A stretch of DNA of 22,603 nt. Source: a virus. The stretch is taken from positions 1 to 22,603 of the IMG/VR virus record IMGVR_UViG_3300044699_000118; one strand, given 5' to 3'. Each line of letters begins with the position of its first letter. Within the stretch, counting starts at the first letter, position 1. Below, piece after piece: positions 4,849 through 22,603 of this stretch. Below the pieces are notes generated by a model, which was not told the origin of the DNA, did not search any database, and saw only the letters and a list, made by a program, of their open reading frames with translations. Position numbers and translations under genes: made by a program.

Positions 4849-5290
4849 CAGGCGCAGGCCGGTACGCCGGTACGGAGCGGGGAGGCGCTGACGTGGATAT
4901 GAGGTCCGCTGGTTCCGCCGTAGGGGTGCCAGCCCTGGCTCGGCGTCCAGATACGCCGACCGTCGTGGTCGATCACTTCTGCGACCTCCAATCTGCGGAG
5001 TCGGTTGGCCTTGGTCTTGTGCTTCGCCTGGTTAGGACCACGGCATCGGCGATGTGACGGAGCTCGTCCTGGACGTAGGTCGGAGAGGGGTGCGGGATGG
5101 GGAACAGGTCCAGGGCGTTCCCCCAGGAGTGCTGGCTCCAGGAGTTCGAGCCCGAGATGTTCTTGCAGACGAAGCATCCGGCGTAGGCGATGATGCGTGT
5201 GGACCCCGAGCCCACCTTTGCCCGACCCATCACCGTCGCGACCCTGCTACAGGGTGCCGTCTGTACGCTGGTGCTGTTGACCGGAAACAT
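4848..5290 (-). CDS. endolysin, M15-type (VanY-like) zinc peptidase, one frameshift
   Basis: After one correction the protein is 147 residues. SQHSWGNALD at residues 52-61 matches the SxHxxGxxxD zinc motif of M15 peptidases (His54 and Asp61), and GPHIHVS at 129-135 gives the C-terminal His pair. Four cysteines or near-cysteines (14, 39, 42, 146) may form disulfides. The frame changes after IADAVV, where one C is missing near 5031-5038; the second half then reads NQAKHKTKANRLRRLEVAEV through IWTPSQGWHPYGG. Without the correction the last metal ligand is lost. It should cut a peptide bond in host peptidoglycan at lysis. The ATG at 5290 shares one base with the protease stop (TGATG), and lysis genes follow. 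Confidence 0.75.
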
Positions 5291-6013
5291 CAGAACGCCC
5301 CCTCGGCGAATGTCCAGTTGTCCCACATGTTGAGCCGGCGGAAGTTCTCGACCGTCAGCCGCGCCGTACCGCTCTGCCCCCACCCCTCGCCCCAGCTGTT
5401 CTGGACCCGGAGGAACGGGGGAGCCCCGTCGTCGGGAGCCAGGTCGATCCCGGTCAGGGCGACGCAGTGATAGCCGGCGAGGTCGCCGTCCATGTTGACC
5501 TTGATCCAGTAGTTGCCGTATGCGGTCTGCAGCGCCTTGTCGCCGTTGCCGCTGTTGCCGCTGAACATCGACATGTACCAGGGGACGGCGATCATGACCG
5601 GTCCGAAGGTGAGCAGCGCCGTGATCACGTCCTCGACCTGGAGCACCTTCCAGTAGGACGTGATAAGGCCGTCGGTCAGGAGCTGGGCGCAGGCATCCCT
5701 CGGGAACATCCCTTCCTTGTAGGTGGCGTCCCCCGATGCCTCGAGGTAGAGCTGACGGGCGAACTGATGGGCCAGCTCCTCGGTCTGGAACTCCGCGTAG
5801 GTCGGATGCGCCGAGGGGCCGGCCAGCAGGACGTTCGTAGCGGCGTGGCCCACGCATGTCCCCTCGCTGCCCTGGTTGATTGCGGAAGTCCTTGTTCACC
5901 ATCGTGTAGAACTTCCGGTCGATCTCGACGGCCGCGAGTGCCCTAGGGCGTAGGTCGAACAGATAGTCCCGCGGGTCGGGTCGGTCGGGCTTGGCGCCGA
6001 GCGCGTACTCCAT
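5290..6013 (-). CDS. papain-like (C1A) cysteine protease, one frameshift
   Basis: All four C1A landmarks are present after one correction: Gln47 and Cys53 in NQGSEGTCVGHA, His182 in GYHCVALTG and Asn205 in VQNSWGEGWGQSG. The N-terminus, YALGAKPDRPDPRDYLF, is the 'PDPRDY' leader seen in phage-borne C1A proteins. One extra base at 5880-5881 separates the leader from the catalytic Cys; without it the enzyme is split. Corrected length is 240 residues. ATG at 6013 is chosen for GGGAGGT 3-4 bases upstream; an in-frame ATG at 6025 overlaps the previous stop. No signal peptide or membrane span is visible. It lies after the fibre genes and before the endolysin, so it may be virion-associated or act at lysis. 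The substrate is unknown. Confidence 0.8.
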
Positions 6014-6919: not shown

Positions 6920-8533
6920 CTAGCTCCTCTGCTTGAATGAGACGGCGTCGAAGGCGATCATCGCATCGGGGTTGGTGGTCGGCGACCACCTGAACACGAT
7001 CTCGGCCTTCGCGGCGCCGGTGGGGGCGACCCCGGTCGCGGTGAGCCGCTGCCATACGCCGAACGGGGGGTTGAAGATGTTGGCACCGCTGACCTCGTCG
7101 ACGAAGTTGCCGTTGATGTCGTTCCAGTAGATGAACAGCTGACACTGGACCGCCGACTGGCTCTCGAAGTACCCGACCGCCTCGTAGGTCTCCCCCGGCG
7201 TGACCGCGGGGCGCTCGGTGGACTGGAGACGGAACTTCGAGTAGACGGCCGAGTCTTGGATCACCACGATCGACCATTCCCCGATGTATCCGACGTGCTG
7301 CCGACCGTAGAACGTAACGGCACCGTCGGTGTAGAACCAGGCTGCGTCGTCGGTCTCCATCGAGGAGGCGTTGGCCGACAGCAGGTTGAGCCGGTGCACG
7401 TTCGCCAGCGGGGTCGCTAGGTCCCAGTCCACCCGCCATTCGAACTCGCTGTTGACCGTCCCCGTGATGCCTTGGACCGCGAGCTCCTGCTCGAGCATCG
7501 CGCCGTAGGGCGGACGGTGGCGGGCGATGACCCGCTCCAGGAGTTCGGTCCCCAGCGCCGACGCCCAGTTCGTGTTCCTGGTCCCCAACCCCAGGTGTCC
7601 GATCCTCCTCCGAGGCTGGGAGTAGCCGGACAGGACGGACTCGGCGAGGTCCTGCATGTCCAACCCGTTCGCCAGGATCGTCGAGATCGACAGGTCGGTA
7701 CGGCCGAACTCCCCCATCGAGTCGATGTCGGTGACCTCGATGTCCACCTCCCCGGGAGAGGAGACGGTGACGGCGTTGAAGATCTCCTTGTCGTCGTCGT
7801 CGATGGAGATGTCGAGGTAACGCCGTTCGCTCGAGATGTCCCCGTAGGCGATCGGGTCCGGGGCCGGGGCGTAGGTCACGTCCCGGAAGACCGCGGAGCC
7901 GTCGGCGCCGAGGAAGAACGCGCCGCCCTCGGACTCGGCGACCAAGAGCATGTAGTCGAACCGTCCCGAGGTCCCGACCGAAGCCTGGACGAGGCGCGTC
8001 CCGGCGTCTACGTCCCGACCCGCCTGCCAGGTCGGGGTGGTCGCATCCAGGACCTTATTCACCCGGCTTCCCGTCAGCTCATCGCCGGTGCCGTATCCCC
8101 CGTCGTAGAGCGGTCCCGGTTCAGACGCTTGGAGTCATCGACGAACGACCATGTCACGGTCGAGTCGGCCTTGGTCTGAGAGAAGGCCATCGGCCCGCCC
8201 TCTGTTCTGCCGGTGAAGATCGGCAGCGTCAGGCTCCCGCCGCCCATCGCTCCCGACAGCGGTCCAGAACCCAGTCCGGTCCGGCCCATCCTCCAGGGAT
8301 TGATGCCGGTGTCCACCCGAGCCAGGAACCGAGCTCGTCGGTTGGGGCGGATCTCCGGGTGCAGGTCGCGGTCGAACCTACCCGTGCGGTTGTCGAACAC
8401 CGCCTGCGCCGTCCCGGCTCCCATCCGGTCCCGCTCCCTCGCCCTGCCGCGGTGCCAGGTGAAGTTCCGCAGGTAGGCCCACGACGCTCTCGTAACCCTG
8501 CCCCAGGTCGATCTCGGCGATGAGCGCCGGCAT
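6920..8533 (-). CDS. distal tail / minor tail protein, two cancelling frameshifts
   Basis: The pattern is that of the phage minor tail family that begins with a short strand, then 'RGRxRExDRxxAGTAxxxxDNRxGRFD': here RNFTWHRGRARERDR and GAGTAQAVFDNRTGRFDRDL. A middle domain has LTGSRVNKVLDATT and the C-terminal domain is a carbohydrate-binding-like beta sandwich (residues about 350-535). One extra C near 8476-8480 and one missing C near 8110-8116 cancel, giving 537 residues. ATG at 8533 has GGAGG only 2 bases upstream, and the same frame runs back into the repeat protein without a stop, so it may be translated as one chain with that protein. It should form part of the tail tip. Confidence 0.65.
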
Positions 8534-10960
8534 CCCCTCCGGCGTGACGACCTGCGGCTCGCCGGATACCTGGGGGACGAACGGGGTGAGCGTCATGTCG
8601 ATGCGCGGCGGCTGAACCGGACCGAGGTAGGACGGGTCGAACGGCGTCAGGATGTGGTCGATCCGGGGGACCCCGGTCAGGACCTGGTCGACGTTGCCGA
8701 AGGTCGGCACCGGAGGAAACAGAGCGAGGGTATGGTCGATGATCAGGTTGACGTTCAGGAAGGCGTCGGCCTGGACGTCGGGAGCGAAGGCCGCGAGCGT
8801 GTGGTCGATCGGGGTGAGCGGTCCTATCTCGAGTGTCCCGGTGCCGAACGAGATCGACGTGGGAGAGAACAGCGTCAGGGTGTGGTTGATGAGTCCGACG
8901 TCGGAGTAGGTGTCGAGGTAGGAGTCGAGGTAGTCCCCGAACCGGATTATCAGGTCTCCGATCGAGAACGCGAACGGGGTCAGGGTGTGGTCTACGACCG
9001 GGGGGAAGACCTGCTGGATCGTGAGCGAGTCGGTCACCGTCGGCGCGAACGCCAGCAGCGAATGGTCGACGAACCCCGGAGTGACCACGAGCGCGCCGGA
9101 CACGTTCGGCGCGTACAGCGTCAGCGTGTGGTCGATCAGCGGGAAGCTGCTGCCCTCTGGCGCGGCGTACTCCATCATCAGCGCCGTCAGGTGCGGGGGA
9201 GGAAGAACGTCGGTGGAGAACCCCCACCGCGCCTTCGCTCTCCCCGCGAGCTTGGTACCGTCCCACCCCCCGGCAGGCCTCGCTACCAGGAACCTATGCA
9301 GGCCCACCGAGAGCGAGGAGTAGTCCAGGAGCCCCGTCGATGATAGGAGCGTCGAACCCGAATCGAGCACGCGCAGGTCGGCGTTATCGCCCAGGACATC
9401 GTCGGAGTTCCCCGCCAAGACCGCCTGCACGTCCCAGATGACCGCCTCGGGTGGGTCGGCGAATCCGATCTCGGCGTAGTTCGCGCCGGAGACGCCCTGG
9501 ACCAGGTAGGTCGTCGAGTCGGGGGGCCACTCGTTGACCGACTCGAACAGCGTCGTGGTCCCGCCGCCGGCGTTGGTGATCGCCCCGCCGAGGGAGTGGG
9601 TGCCGTCGGCGTTGGGGTCCAACTGGATGCAGCGGTGCGGCCCTACGGGATAGTCGGCGGCGGTCGCCGACAGAACGAGGTCCTGGAGCCAGAAGGTCGC
9701 GGTGTTAGCGGTGTTGACCGACCCGAGGTAGAAGCGGTCCATGTTGAGCGGCGTCTGGAGGGTGAGCACGACCTGGGGTTGCGCGACCGAGTCGAACTGC
9801 CAGTCGATCGTGAACGTCGCCGACGAGCAGGTGAAGCGGAAGTCGATCAGGTGCCAGCCGCCGTCGGAGAAGACCGGGCCGGTCTGGGAGTTGCCGCCCC
9901 ACGTCGCCCGTATCTCTCCCGCCGCCGTTATCTGGAAGCTCGGGATGGTCGCCGGCCCGGACGCCCGGAGCATCGTCGAGACCGCGGCCGGGTTCGTCAC
10001 CGCTCGGACGTAGATCGACCCGACCAGGACCGAAGTCGCGACCGGGGTGTAGGCGTTCTGGGCGGTGATGCCGTCCTGTTGTATCCGCAGCGACGCCCGA
10101 TGGGCCGCCGTCCGGGTCACCGTCGGGTCGAGCGTCGGCGTGCCGTTGACCAGGGTATAGGTCCCGCCCAGCCCCGTGCCCGACAGTGGGTCGTCTATCC
10201 CCGAGCCGAACGAGTCCAAGAAGATGAGCGTCGGCGTCGTACCGGCCAGACCCGAGACCGACGGCGCTAGCGCGACGAGGGTGTGGTCGATGAGCGCACC
10301 GTCGACCTGCCCCGCCACCCCTCCTAGCGCGATCTCCGAGGCGATGCCGATACGGTTGGAGGTGGAGGTCGCCCAGGAATACGACGGCGTCGTATCCGTG
10401 GCCGAGGAGTGCCAAGCGACGGCGAAGCCGATGTTCGACGCCGTCTGGGTCTGATCGGCTATCTCGGTGTAGCCGGCCTCGGGGGTCGAGGCTTCGGCCG
10501 TACCATGCTCCGCGACGATCAGCGGGCGGTTCCCCGAGTCCGAGAACGCCGCGAGCGTCACCGTGACGTCTAAAGCCCCACCGCCGGGGGCCGTCCCGAC
10601 GGTCTGGACGAACGGGTCCGACGTCGAGGCGCCGGTGATCTCGTAGACCGCCCAGGTCCAAGAGGTCTGCGTATCGGCGCCGTGATCGAAGGTGATAGTC
10701 CCCGAGCCGGGAGCCGAGCCGGTCCAGGCGTAGAACCGCGAGAGGCTCCGGGCTCCTACGGCCGAGGTCTGGAAGTTCTCCGTGAACCACGTCAGCGACA
10801 GTCCGGAGACGGTCGGTTGCGTGATCGGCCCGGAGCTCTTGGCCGAGGCCACATCGGCCACCAGCCATCGGTCGGCGCCGGGGGAAACCGAGGCGGTCGC
10901 GACCGAGGTCCCGTCCGTCGTGCTCCCACCCTGGGACAGGAGGGTTACAGCGATGGCCAC
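8378..10960 (-). CDS. large lectin-like tail protein with C-terminal IDHTL repeats
   Basis: GTG at 10960 follows AGGAGG by 4 bases. Residues about 1-215 form an Ig-like or jelly-roll domain (TSWTWAVYEITGASTSDPF). About 240-430 looks like a laminin-G/concanavalin-type domain (DSFGSGIDDPL, FTIDWQFDSVAQPQ). Another sandwich domain follows, with ARWGFSTDVLPPPHLTALMM. From about residue 605 the chain is a tandem array of 'IDHTLxxFAPxV' units; one copy sits earlier, near residue 225. The last 40 literal residues (after 8478) are in the wrong frame, because an extra C near 8476-8480 shifts out of the following tail-protein domain. It is probably a virion fibre or tail-tip component that binds host glycans. 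Family names are inferred from fold-like patterns. Confidence 0.65.
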   Translation of the reverse strand: MAIAVTLLSQGGSTTDGTSVATASVSPGADRWLVADVASAKSSGPITQPTVSGLSLTWFTENFQTSAVGARSLSRFYAWTGSAPGSGTITFDHGADTQTSWTWAVYEITGASTSDPFVQTVGTAPGGGALDVTVTLAAFSDSGNRPLIVAEHGTAEASTPEAGYTEIADQTQTASNIGFAVAWHSSATDTTPSYSWATSTSNRIGIASEIALGGVAGQVDGALIDHTLVALAPSVSGLAGTTPTLIFLDSFGSGIDDPLSGTGLGGTYTLVNGTPTLDPTVTRTAAHRASLRIQQDGITAQNAYTPVATSVLVGSIYVRAVTNPAAVSTMLRASGPATIPSFQITAAGEIRATWGGNSQTGPVFSDGGWHLIDFRFTCSSATFTIDWQFDSVAQPQVVLTLQTPLNMDRFYLGSVNTANTATFWLQDLVLSATAADYPVGPHRCIQLDPNADGTHSLGGAITNAGGGTTTLFESVNEWPPDSTTYLVQGVSGANYAEIGFADPPEAVIWDVQAVLAGNSDDVLGDNADLRVLDSGSTLLSSTGLLDYSSLSVGLHRFLVARPAGGWDGTKLAGRAKARWGFSTDVLPPPHLTALMMEYAAPEGSSFPLIDHTLTLYAPNVSGALVVTPGFVDHSLLAFAPTVTDSLTIQQVFPPVVDHTLTPFAFSIGDLIIRFGDYLDSYLDTYSDVGLINHTLTLFSPTSISFGTGTLEIGPLTPIDHTLAAFAPDVQADAFLNVNLIIDHTLALFPPVPTFGNVDQVLTGVPRIDHILTPFDPSYLGPVQPPRIDMTLTPFVPQVSGEPQVVTPEGMPALIAEIDLGQGYESVVGLPAELHLAPRQGEGAGPDGSRDGAGGVRQPHG
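8534..9150 (-). repeat. tandem protein repeat array, eight 'IDHTLxxFAPxV' units
   Basis: Eight diverged units with spacing of about 20-35 residues: IDHTLTLYAP, VDHSLLAFAP, VDHTLTPFAF, INHTLTLFSP, IDHTLAAFAP, IDHTLALFPP, IDHILTPFDP and IDMTLTPFVP. A ninth copy (IDHTLVALAP) lies alone near 10268-10297. The plus-strand DNA signature is GTGTGGTCGAT and near variants. The units differ at many codons, so this is an old repeat under protein-level selection, not a recent slippage product. An insert of DYLDSYLDTYSDV separates units three and four. Confidence 0.75.
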
Positions 10961-10969
10961 GGCCCCTCC

Positions 10970-12218
10970 TTAGACGGTCTGGATCGCGCCGCTCGCGGTG
11001 GTCCCCGAGTCGTCGGTGGGTCGCCAGGACCGCATCGCGCCGGTGTTCCCGGCGGTGACCTCCAGGCGCGGGTCCGGGCCGGTGTACTGCCCGAACCGCA
11101 CCCCGGCGGCGTCGGGTCCGCACCGGACCGTCGGGATCGAGCCGGAGGAGGTCTGGGTCGCGTTGAAGAACACCTCGGTGCCGTTGACGTACACCCCGCC
11201 CAGGCCGGTCGTCGCCGCCGAGAGCTCGAACTTGCAGTGGGTGAACCCGACCCCCAGACGGTACGGGGAGCTCGCGCCTGTCCCGTGCTCCAGCACCACC
11301 GACCATCGGTTCGCCTGCCCCGACCCGGCGAAGTGGCAATCGACGAACTGGAACGAGGCCGAGTCGCCGCCGGTCGCGCTGCGCTTCTCGAGGCGGACCC
11401 GCTCCTCACCGTCGGAGTAGAACGCGCAGCCGACGAAGTTGCCGTTGTTGCCCGAGGTCAACGCCGCCCCCCGGTAGCAACGCCGGAAGATGCAGCCGAA
11501 GAAGTACATCCAGTCGGCGAACGCTGCCGGGGTCTCGGCACGCAGACCCGCCGGTCCGGCGTCGAACGACGCGCCGGTGGGGGCACCGATCCCGAAGCCG
11601 TCGAAGCGGACGTTCATCATGACCATCTCTTGCGCGTTGTCCAGCCAGATGCCCGAGAGCCCCCGGCCTAGGACGGTCCCACCGAAGTCCCCCCCGGTGC
11701 CGTCGGTGATCGCGAAGTTCTGACACCAGCCGTCGGCGCCGGTCCAGTGGAACATATGGATACCGGCCGTCCCGCACTTGATCCGGGTCGCAGTCCTACC
11801 CGCTCCGACCAGGGCGACGCCGCGCTTGGAGATGTTGACCTGGGAGTTGATGATGTGCGTCCCCCTCCGAGACGTAGATCGTCCCGCCGTTGGTAGGAAG
11901 GGCGGTGTGGGCGGCGGCGATCGTGGCCTTCGCGGTGTTCGGGGAGGCGCCGTCGTTCGCATCCGACCCCCCGGCGGCGCGGACGAACTGCCAGCCCATC
12001 GCCGTGTTGAATCCGGGGGAACCCCCGGCCCCTCCGGGGGAGGCCCATGTCCCGTCGGCGCGGAGGAAGTTCGCCGTCCCTCCGGGGAACCCGACGTGTC
12101 CGGTGAGGATGTCCTGTCCCTCGTTGTAGCCGAGGGGGTTGTTCAGCCATGCGTGAAGGAGGTTGTGGTCGGTGACGTGTCCGGTCTCGCCGGCGGTCCT
12201 TTGAGGTAGGTCGGCCAT
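10970..12218 (-). CDS. tail fibre with right-handed beta-helix (pectate-lyase-like) domain, one frameshift
   Basis: The N-terminal part reads GHVTDHNLLHAWLNNPLGY and FLRADGTWASPGG, the linker common in phage fibres. After a G5 run at 11861-11865 with one base too many, the second frame continues THIINSQVNISKRGVALVGAG. A long series of short strands follows (GIWLDNAQEMVMMNVRFDGF, FVGCAFYSDGEERV, FQFVDCHFAG), as in beta-helix depolymerases and fibres. Corrected length is 415 residues. ATG at 12218 has AGGAGG 4 bases upstream. Many phage beta-helix fibres bind or cleave surface polysaccharide. I cannot see a definite catalytic site, so binding only is possible. Confidence 0.7.
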
Positions 12219-12744: not shown

Positions 12745-13063
12745 GCGTTCTCCCTTCTCGGGCCACCACGAGCGGGCGGCGTAACTGCGTTCCTTGTCCG
12801 GGGACCTCGAGCCGTTGGGGCTCGGGTTGGGGGATCTCCTTGGTGGCCTGGAGGCCGTCGAGTCCGGCTTCTTTGAGGCGTTCGTAGACCGTCTCCGAGA
12901 CGACCACGTCCCCGACCTGGTCTAGGCCGAGGTGGTAGGTCTTGAGGTCGTGGACCCCTTGGCAGAGCCAGCAGAACATCGGCTGGGTCAGGGGACGGCC
13001 GAAGTGGATCAGGGTGTAGGTGCAGTTCCTAAGTTCGGGGTGGTGGAGGCGGACGCCGCTCAC
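12737..13063 (-). CDS. CxxC protein following the tape measure (108 aa)
   Basis: GTG at 13063 shares GTGA with the tape-measure stop. The protein reads LHHPELRNCTYTLIHFGRPL, then QPMFCWLCQGVHDLKTYHLG and a Val-rich segment DVVVSETVYERLKEAGLDG. CWLC with nearby Cys14 and His residues may bind a metal. This arrangement, a small CxxC protein directly after the tape measure, recurs in actinophages. The C-terminal 30 residues are Pro/Gln/Arg-rich and probably disordered. It may help tail assembly or be a minor virion protein. Confidence 0.55.
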   Translation of the reverse strand: MSGVRLHHPELRNCTYTLIHFGRPLTQPMFCWLCQGVHDLKTYHLGLDQVGDVVVSETVYERLKEAGLDGLQATKEIPQPEPQRLEVPGQGTQLRRPLVVAREGRTHG

Positions 13064-14517
13064 GTTCGGACGGCACCGTTAAAAATGGCCCCACTCCGCT
13101 CGAGACGCTTAGTCATGATCCGGTCCAGGGCTCCAGAGACCTTCTCGCCATCGAGGAAAACCTCCACCTGTACACCCCCGCCGAAGCCCATCTCATTGTT
13201 GACGCCGGAGAACGCCTCACCCTTGTGGATCACCGCCAACCCTGTACGGGCAACGACGCCGCCAGTAGCAGCACCAGGGACGAACCCTGGTGGGAGCAGG
13301 CCGCCGACCTGACCTCCGAGCTGCTCCCCCACACCATGACCGAGCTGCCCGAGCCAGTCGATCGCGCTCTTGATCCACCCGATGAGCGTCTCGATCTTGC
13401 CGATGACGACCTCGATGAACCCGGCGACGGCGTGCCATGCCGTAGCGGCGGCGTCCCTGACCACGTCCCAGATGGGACGCACCTTGTCCATGACGAAACT
13501 GACGATGCGGGCGAGGAAGTTGACCACCGGCTCCACGACCTTGTCCCTGATGAACCCAACGAAGTCCAGGAACTTGTCGATGACGAATCCGACCGCCGTC
13601 ACCACAAGAGCGAACTGCGCCAGGATCATCGTGGCAAACAGGACCACCGCCGCGCCGATGATGATGAGCAGCGGCTTGATCCGGTTCAGCGCCGGGAGGA
13701 TGCGGTCCTGGATGGTATGCCACGCCGTTAGGAGCAAGGGAACCAGGACGTCACCGATAGCCGATGCGAACGGCTTGACGGCGTCCCACGCCTTCCCGAC
13801 GCCTTCGGTGAATGCGGCCCACGCCGCCGGGATCCTGTCCTGGAGTATCCCGAGCAGTTGATTCAGCTGACCGAGCAGGAACTCGAACGCCGGCGCCAGC
13901 ACCGACCCAACGGCTTCGGCGAGGTTCTCGAACGACACCGCAGCCTTTCCGGTCGCGGTGGCTTGCGCCTCTGCCGATCCCTTGAACTGCGAGGTGACCT
14001 CGGCGAGGATGATCTTCTGAGCACCCATCAGGTTGTTGTGCTTGACCAGTTGAGCGATCTGCTTCTGCTGCTCCTCGGTGAACTGCACGCCGACACGGGT
14101 CAGCGAGGACATACCCGCTATAGGGTCGTTCAGGGCCTTGCCGAGTTGGATGGTCGCCGACTTTAGGTTGATCTGGCTCCCCGAGGCGGCGGCGTATCCG
14201 GCCGCCAGGTCCAGGGCCGCGGTGGATGCTTGGGTGAAGATGTCGTTCTGTGCGCCGGCCTCGTTACGGATGTTCTTGAACGTCAGGAGCATGTTCTCGC
14301 CGGCCTGGATGACCTCATCGTCCACCCCGGCCTTGACCGAGAGCGCATCCGCGAGCTCGGCGACCTGTCCGGCGGTGACATGTGCCGCGCCACCGGTCGA
14401 CTTGATCACGGCGCCGGTCTGCTGGAGGACGTTCTCGGATTCCTCGAACTTCCCGAAAGCGAAAGCGGCCCCCGCGGCGAGCGCCGTGAAGGCCGTGGCG
14501 GCTGCCGCCAGTCCCAC
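13060..14517 (-). CDS. tape measure protein
   Basis: A long Ala/Gly-rich helical protein with a hydrophobic block near residues 282-315 (LLIIIGAAVVLFATMILAQF) and a Gly-rich C-terminal part (GLLPPGFVPGAATGGVVAR), as in siphovirus tape measures. It follows the tail tube and assembly chaperone, the conserved order. From GTG at 14517 it has 485 residues; at roughly 0.15 nm per residue this predicts a tail near 70-75 nm. In-frame sequence upstream (IPTISTLSVDVVANTSRLR) looks like the true N-terminus and runs back to a TGA at 14578. There GGAGG is placed about 6 bases before an ATC codon (14574), not an ATG. The real start may be masked by an error there. Confidence 0.8.
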   Translation of the reverse strand: MGLAAAATAFTALAAGAAFAFGKFEESENVLQQTGAVIKSTGGAAHVTAGQVAELADALSVKAGVDDEVIQAGENMLLTFKNIRNEAGAQNDIFTQASTAALDLAAGYAAASGSQINLKSATIQLGKALNDPIAGMSSLTRVGVQFTEEQQKQIAQLVKHNNLMGAQKIILAEVTSQFKGSAEAQATATGKAAVSFENLAEAVGSVLAPAFEFLLGQLNQLLGILQDRIPAAWAAFTEGVGKAWDAVKPFASAIGDVLVPLLLTAWHTIQDRILPALNRIKPLLIIIGAAVVLFATMILAQFALVVTAVGFVIDKFLDFVGFIRDKVVEPVVNFLARIVSFVMDKVRPIWDVVRDAAATAWHAVAGFIEVVIGKIETLIGWIKSAIDWLGQLGHGVGEQLGGQVGGLLPPGFVPGAATGGVVARTGLAVIHKGEAFSGVNNEMGFGGGVQVEVFLDGEKVSGALDRIMTKRLERSGAIFNGAVRT

Positions 14518-21185: not shown

Positions 21186-22603
21186 TCATGCCCCCCTGTA
21201 GACGTGGATCTGCGGCGAACGCTCGCCCATCTGCTCGATAGCCTGGTTTACGGCCATGATCAGGCCGATGAAGGCGTTGTTCCCCGCCGGTTGGAAGTAG
21301 GCTCCCGTGGTCGTCTCCTTCACCTGTGCCCCCAGGACCTGACGGCGCAACTCCTCGTCACCGTCGTGGATGACCTGACCGGCGTTGACCAATCCCACGA
21401 AGGTCGCGGTGGCCTCCATGAGGGCGACCGTCGACTGGATGTATTTCGTGAACGGCAACCCTGATTCCTCGAGGAAGTGCTCGCCCCCCGGACCGAACTG
21501 CCGCGTGTCGATGAAGATGTCCCGGACCTTGTAGACCTCCATCAGCCTGTGCAGCATCGGCACGACCTCGGTCCAGACGTGAGAGGTCTTCTCGATCGCT
21601 ACGGCCGCTGACCCGTCGGCCCTGAGCGCCACGATCCCGACCCCGGCGCCGTCCTCCTGACCCGTCCGGATGCCGAGCCATACCGATTCCCCAGAACGCA
21701 ACGTCCCGATGTCGGCGCGGAGCGGGTCCCACTGCTCGGGCAGGATCGCCGACCCGATCCCGGCAGGCAGTCCGCAGTTGAACCGCCGCCAGTGGCTAGC
21801 GATCATCGCCGGCGAGGCGTACTTCTCCTTGAGCACCGCCCTGGTGATGGCCTTCAGCGGGTTGGCCTTCAGGACGTCGTTCATGTTGTCCGGCGAGCCG
21901 CCCTCGGGAAGGCGGTATTCGTGCAGGACGGTCTGCTCCGAGGCGGCCCGCGTGAATCCCCCCCGGACGGTCACGGTGTCGGCCTGGGCCTTGATGTTGG
22001 CCCGGACCTCCTCGAACTCGCCGTCGGGCTCCCCAGCGGTCGAGATGGCGACGATCTGCCCCCCTATCTTGTCCACCTTGCCCCGCCAGGTCCGATACAG
22101 GCGCATGTCCCGATGGCGGTGGAGCTCGTCCAAGATCGCCAACGTCGGCCTCGCGCCGTCCCCGGTCCGGTCGTCAGCGGCGAACACCTGGATGCGAGAG
22201 CCGACCGAGTCGCATCGTATGCGGCGATACCCCTCCTGGGGCTTGAAATGCTTCAGACCCGACCTTGCGATGAAGCCATCGGCGGCCAGGAAGAGCCAGT
22301 TCGCCTGGTCCCGGCTGGACGCCGCCACCGTGACCATCGCCGATGGCTTGAACTCGGCGTGGTACAGCGCGAGCGCTGCCATAAAAGTAGTTTTTGCGTT
22401 GCCCTCCGGGATCACCAGCCAGCATTCCCGGAAGCCGGCGAACACATCCTTGAGGAAGGCCGCCTGGAACGGCTCCAGGACCCAAGCCTGCCCGTTGTCC
22501 AGTTCCAGGCCGTGAGCCCATCGGCGGAAGTGGGGGACGGTGAACGGCTTGCTATTTCTCATCACAAGCACCCGGCGGCGGATTTTCTCGCGAAAACTGG
22601 CGG
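21186..22603 (-). CDS. terL: terminase large subunit, open at the right edge
   Basis: Counting from GTG at 22571, the ATPase has PEGNAKTT at 55-62 (Walker A), TLAILDE at 143-149 (Walker B) and STAG at 177-180 (coupling motif). 'HFRRWAHGLELDNGQAWVLE' upstream is the usual leader of Terminase_1-type proteins. The C-terminal nuclease fold has IFIDTRQFG with Asp355, but the usual first acid is Arg302 (WLGIRTGQEDGAG) and the last usual Asp is an Asn in NNAFIGLIMAV. The frame stays open past GTG 22571 (and ATG 22562) to the window edge, so the true start may lie outside. It pumps DNA into the prohead and cuts concatemers; the portal gene follows directly. The frame itself needs no correction. Confidence 0.85.
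   Translation of the reverse strand, partial: ASFREKIRRRVLVMRNSKPFTVPHFRRWAHGLELDNGQAWVLEPFQAAFLKDVFAGFRECWLVIPEGNAKTTFMAALALYHAEFKPSAMVTVAASSRDQANWLFLAADGFIARSGLKHFKPQEGYRRIRCDSVGSRIQVFAADDRTGDGARPTLAILDELHRHRDMRLYRTWRGKVDKIGGQIVAISTAGEPDGEFEEVRANIKAQADTVTVRGGFTRAASEQTVLHEYRLPEGGSPDNMNDVLKANPLKAITRAVLKEKYASPAMIASHWRRFNCGLPAGIGSAILPEQWDPLRADIGTLRSGESVWLGIRTGQEDGAGVGIVALRADGSAAVAIEKTSHVWTEVVPMLHRLMEVYKVRDIFIDTRQFGPGGEHFLEESGLPFTKYIQSTVALMEATATFVGLVNAGQVIHDGDEELRRQVLGAQVKETTTGAYFQPAGNNAFIGLIMAVNQAIEQMGERSPQIHVYRGA

Follow-up and report, generated by a model that had tools for sequence, protein, structure and literature searches.

A DHTL-Type Repeat in a Phage Tail-Tip Protein as a Divergent Dialect of the YAPTV-Type Phage-Tail Repeats

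Introduction

A putative tail-tip protein encoded in IMG/VR record IMGVR_UViG_3300044699_000118 carries several copies of a compact motif, 'IDHTLxxFAPxV', which raises the question of whether the motif defines a repeat of its own kind and what an array of such units might do in a phage tail. We analyzed positions 1-22,603 of this virus record of 22.6 kb; this whole stretch of 22,603 nt is called the window below. Judged by sequence comparison, the repeat is not new in kind but is a divergent dialect of a widespread, unnamed group of phage-tail repeats; for the window alone, what is new is the sequence variant of that repeat and not the kind of system.

Results

Nine Units in a Tail-Module Gene

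The repeat lies in an 860-aa open reading frame (ORF) within a tail module, with the tape measure and terminase genes upstream, a peptidase gene downstream, and other tail genes on the minus strand. The ORF aligns end to end with a 1354-aa ORF of the nearest relative of the window, IMG/VR 3300026095_000038 (L005), in which a first domain (D1), one repeat unit, domains D2 and D3, eight further units, and a C-terminal part of ~535 aa follow each other in a single frame. The corresponding features of the window, with the rank of each unit in the YAPTV profile test described below, are as follows.

21186-22571 (-), terminase, upstream of the repeat gene
13060-14517 (-), tape measure, upstream of the repeat gene
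8378..10960 (-), repeat-bearing ORF, 860 aa, the N-terminal two thirds of a ~1350-aa tail-tip protein
10295..10960 (-), domain D1, ~222 aa, 58% identical to L005
10256..10291 (-), unit 1, the lone copy, IDHTLVALAPSV, rank 4 of ~840 positions
9641..10243 (-), domain D2, LamG-like by a weak match only (Laminin_G_2, E 0.2), placement plausible
9161..9640 (-), domain D3, no family match
9101..9136 (-), unit 2, IDHTLTLYAPNV, rank 1
9035..9070 (-), unit 3, VDHSLLAFAPTV, rank 2
8960..8995 (-), unit 4, VDHTLTPFAFSI, rank 10
8855..8890 (-), unit 5, INHTLTLFSPTS, preceded by the insertion FGDYLDSYLDTYSDVG, rank 5
8774..8809 (-), unit 6, IDHTLAAFAPDV, rank 3
8705..8740 (-), unit 7, IDHTLALFPPVP, rank 9
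8627..8662 (-), unit 8, IDHILTPFDPSY, rank 31
8567..8602 (-), unit 9, IDMTLTPFVPQV, rank 6
6920..8533 (-), hub-like C-terminal part of ~535 aa, homologue of phiPsal1_019, out of frame at ~8097-8477
5290-5853 (-), cysteine peptidase of the papain family (C1), located downstream of the tail-tip gene, with a PHROG 16701 'peptidase' match at E 5e-20 and a Pfam match at the cut-off

The units start at residues 224, 609, 631, 656, 691, 718, 741, 767, and 787. With the substitutions seen among them allowed, the motif [ILV][DN][HM][TSI]L..[FYL].P has exactly nine matches in the protein, whereas 5000 residue shuffles average 0.0006 matches and never exceed one; the motif was composed after the units were known, so the independent YAPTV profile test, which also ranks the units on top, is the stronger of the two. 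The nine-copy repeat of a preliminary description is thus real, as is its arrangement, with one copy after the first domain (10256-10291) and eight at the C-terminal end of the ORF (8567-9136), and the unit is modular and multiplied in tandem. Of the proposed signature of DHTL, an aromatic residue or Leu, and Pro, exact DHTL occurs in only five of the nine units (the others read DHSL, NHTL, DHIL, and DMTL), and unit 4 has Phe in place of Pro. The eight-unit array spans about 190-208 residues rather than the 250 first estimated.

Successive units of the array are 22, 25, 35, 27, 23, 26, and 20 residues apart; four of these seven spacings fall within the 20-25-residue period of the wider repeat group, two are slightly above it, and one contains an insertion, in agreement with that period. 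No tandem array is detectable at the DNA level in the repeat region, which indicates that the copies are old and have long diverged. The window and L005 have nine units each in identical register, and within the ORF, conservation between them is highest in the array (64% identity, compared with 58% for D1 and 53% for D2-D3; dN 0.27, dS 0.53).

Just past the array, the 860-aa ORF is ended by a frame break where the L005 protein continues for ~535 residues; the C-terminal part of the window protein is back in frame after ~8097 and runs down to 6920. Frame breaks relative to L005 are seen at ~8477, ~8097, ~6574, ~11863, and ~15007, two of which compensate within one gene. Because several other window genes have similar breaks and L005 has intact versions, the comparison points to contig errors, not biology. 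The frames at 10970-11962 and 11796-12218 (-) apparently belong to one gene with a break between them, a single open stretch in L005; this gene has a weak beta-helix match (Pfam Beta_helix, E 0.03).

Kinship with the YAPTV-Type Repeats

In its usual form, the wider repeat reads PxL....TFYAPTV..G...L with a period of 20-25 residues; typical units are PALFTNSNTFYAPTVxRGTITL, LIDSGSAIYAPTV, and LVDASAAVYAPSL, and a protein may contain as many as ~36 of them. A DNA pattern of two YAPTV units was found in 47 viral contigs and one of two neighboring TLYAP-like units in four.

As a 21-column unit HMM is too short for scoring single units, we used a position-specific matrix together with shuffles. The matrix was built on 26 other viral contigs, which contributed 251 'PxL....TFYAPTV' units and did not include the window or L005. 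When this matrix is slid along the window protein, ranks 1-6 all go to noted units, and eight of the nine units are among the top ten of ~840 positions. Added together, the nine highest scores amount to 16.8; 2000 shuffles gave -57 ± 13, and none of them reached the observed value. A profile-profile comparison (hhalign) of the two-sequence array of the window and L005 with 16 other arrays gave 93% (E 2.6e-7), with ~five units in register. The window units also conform to the general unit profile (hydrophobic, 2-4 polar, T, aliphatic/aromatic, [YF], small, P, x, V), and L005 units such as PALLSNVLTPFAPLV have an ordinary YAPTV reading (score 12.2), bridging the DHTL and YAPTV dialects. The likeness to 'YAPTV'-type phage repeats that had been suspected is therefore borne out. 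Across very divergent phages, the aromatic-x-Pro core is strongly conserved; the other arrays practically lack His at the DHTL position and do not typically have the first Leu of DHTL either.

Searches for closer relatives returned little. A two-copy DHTL DNA pattern occurred in 20 contigs, of which only L005 is a true relative, the others being chance matches or unrelated DHT-rich sequence; with the full window protein or the hub-like part as query, only L005 was recovered again. The array alone had no match in cultured phages by tblastn at E 10, a probable consequence of how short and divergent the repeats are. Relatives of the repeat are present in mycobacteriophages (PHROG 8501/553, see below), in many uncultured phages, in cyanophage Pam2 and, more distantly, in Microcystis phage Mwe-JY26. 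The array of the last (L074:7137-9641) is made of GIQDGDTFGSSVAQRGSVTVSAS units with an unchanged period and has an N-terminal domain that looks similar; its gene is close to that of the capsid and precedes that of the tail tube. Among eight matches of a pattern scan of a genome collection, only that in Ruegeria sp. 2205SS24-7 (L081) looks like a real array, a 450-aa open frame with ~24-residue GLGYAPTV units that perhaps belongs to a prophage or gene transfer agent.

The databases know this repeat group only as 'minor tail protein'. No match in Pfam, PHROGs, NCBIfam, or PDB covers the repeats of the window protein, and the Pfam/NCBIfam models of hexapeptide, RTX, Ig-like, BACON, and collagen repeats have no match in it; Pfam, NCBIfam, and PDB are without a model or structure for the YAPTV-type repeat, which literature searches found nowhere described. 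PHROG 8501, annotated 'minor tail protein', consists of this repeat (Brujita gp24, E 2e-73; Firecracker gp62) and is matched by two uncultured arrays, L030 in seven stretches and L025 in five; in PHROG 553 and PHROG 13352, the units are combined with further domains. Since the window protein has no match to the PHROG 8501 model at E <= 0.1, it is a distant relative rather than a member of that family.

Two of the cultured phages with a free-standing repeat protein, the Cluster O mycobacteriophages Catdawg and Corndog, have been studied by mass spectrometry (PMC4351075). A lysate of Catdawg yielded 304 peptides of gp61, whose coordinates we matched, and twice CsCl-banded virions of Corndog yielded 9 peptides of gp64, a homologue by position and length (PMC4351075). 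These published data place the Corndog/Catdawg homologues in the virion. The repeat protein is absent from the listed resolved parts of the Corndog baseplate in a 2026 cryo-EM preprint (PMC13252515).

Domains around the Array

None of D1-D3 has a significant match to domain models, and D1 has none to the first domains of other arrays in profile comparisons. Among deposited phage proteins, one resembles D1 weakly (L086:2495-3403, MW202733; 35% over 107 aa); it is annotated 'putative transglutaminase', an annotation that is doubtful.

Further N-terminal domains adjoin the arrays in L054, L072, L041, L046, L064, and L070, with laminin-G in two of them: in L054 and L072, a first domain is followed by two units, a Laminin_G_3 domain (E 8e-38 and 7e-22, respectively), and then the remaining array. 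Given this order, the lone copy of the window is probably part of an array split by inserted, lectin-like domains, a better reading than the earlier one of a linker that was later multiplied.

The C-terminal part is homologous to phiPsal1_019 of Pontimonas phage phiPsal1 (26% identity over 330 residues, E 3e-14), whose gene immediately follows that of the tape measure, where tail-tip or hub proteins are usually encoded. This homology and the domain order of L005 put the repeats between the N-terminal domains and a hub-like anchor.

Copy Number, Spacing, and Predicted Structure

Arrays L041 and L046, whose first domains are 87% identical, contain about 10 and 14-15 units, respectively; array length thus changes between close relatives, by about five units in this case. 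The copy-number change to be looked for between related phages is therefore seen in this pair but not between the window and L005, which have the same number. Spacings in the YAPTV arrays (L025, L029, L045, L054, and others) are nearly always 20, 22, 23, 24, or 25 residues, and 21 is found in 0 of 241; such quantized spacing would fit hairpin turns, or strands joined by turns of allowed lengths. The loops vary freely in length and sequence.

Structure predictions were made on single chains with AlphaFold2. For the window array with 14 others, the model is not confident (pLDDT 47), and for a regular seven-unit array with 25 others, it reaches pLDDT 67 and pTM 0.59, and the same short strands recur from unit to unit; the units are thus predicted to be equivalent in the regular relative. 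A Foldseek comparison of the regular-array model with PDB and viral structure libraries gave no significant fold match. For Brujita gp24, a match to a left-handed beta-helix was weak (E 0.11) and is not relied on.

Discussion

The arrangement is best explained, with a probability of about 0.6, by a modular beta-hairpin spacer that is anchored through the hub-like part and holds lectin-type domains away from it. The array sits between the N-terminal domains D1-D3, putatively of carbohydrate-binding type, and the hub-like C-terminal part, by which it would be attached to the tail tip. A single unit most likely folds as a small beta-hairpin-like element, and the stacked, probably oligomeric, units would form an extended spacer of adjustable length that could hold the N-terminal domains out from the tail tip for contact with the host surface, possibly by sugar binding. 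A stalk or spacer role is plausible given that N-terminal domains, array, and hub-like part are joined in one ORF in L005; the pLDDT of 47 for the window array, the missing fold match, the lack of a significant domain match for D1-D3 and of a link from D1 to the first domains of other arrays, the missing direct match to PHROG 8501, and the absence of the protein from the resolved parts of the Corndog baseplate count against this explanation, as does the capacity of short repeats to converge.

The aromatic-x-Pro core conserved across very divergent phages could instead suggest that the units are active, each presenting a binding surface for a host glycan or a tail protein, with the array giving avidity or docking several partners. 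Copy number varies among relatives, and in mycobacteriophages the array is a small protein of its own, as would suit a docking part. However, most of the conserved positions are hydrophobic or Pro, a pattern like that of a structural core, and the loops are free to vary; we consider a binding array unlikely. An origin of the DHTL units in their own lineage, with the likeness to YAPTV units arising from a need for short strands and aromatic-x-Pro turns, would account for the untypical His and first Leu and for the missing direct match to PHROG 8501. The profile and profile-profile tests nonetheless link the two kinds of unit, some L005 units read as ordinary YAPTV units, and L054 and L072 share the order of domains and units, which together make independent origin distinctly improbable. 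The least credible reading by far is that the array holds divalent ions, as the preliminary description had suggested from its Asp-His pairs: the pair is present in seven of the nine window units, with Asn-His in one more, but it is not conserved, being lost from two of the nine L005 units (LLSNVL and LIALTL) with the Leu/Phe/Pro core kept, replaced by Asp-Met in unit 9 of both the window and L005, and absent from the wider family.

Returning to the hairpin spacer, a broader version of it, to which we give somewhat less than even odds, is that the YAPTV-type repeats, including the DHTL branch, form a single homologous and structurally new class of tail stalks, shared by phages whose hosts are mycobacteria, cyanobacteria, or any of many uncultured organisms. 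In such stalks, the gain and loss of hairpin units and the insertion of lectin domains between units would retune reach and binding. The repeat is found in dozens of phage tail proteins, including virions of well-studied mycobacteriophages, and we found neither a Pfam/NCBIfam entry nor a solved structure for it. Should it serve as a modular spacer, phages would have a simple route to altered reach and host contact through the length of the array and the domains inserted in it.

Among known systems, the triple beta-spiral shafts of viral fibers resemble the present repeat in consisting of short, hydrophobic beta repeats whose turn is fixed and whose loop varies; there is no sequence or fold match between the two, and the likeness serves as a lead only. 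The 'putative tail fiber' phiPsal1_019 corresponds to the C-terminal portion of the window and L005 proteins but comprises only 395 aa, without D1-D3 and the array. The proteins of PHROG 8501 (Brujita gp24, Firecracker gp62, and Catdawg gp61) share the tandem 20-25-residue units, the x-x-P-T-V core, and the setting in a tail module; unlike the window protein, they are free-standing, 132-133 aa long with ~six units, and without lectin-like or hub domains. In the 'minor tail protein' of PHROG 553/13352 (prophi58-1 gp71, L085:4962-6698, from a mycobacterial prophage), a related array and further domains are joined in one protein, as in the window, but the array is N-terminal with the domains after it, and the unit, VPSRVAVGTPTIT, is without the aromatic residue. 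In the uncultured phages L054 and L072, the units (LIDSGSAIYAPTV and LLDAGSALYAPTL, respectively) differ from those of the window, there are up to 23 of them, and L054 is without a joined hub-like part; the order of domains and units is nevertheless the same, the window having one lone unit and a weakly LamG-like D2 where these phages have two units and a laminin-G domain.
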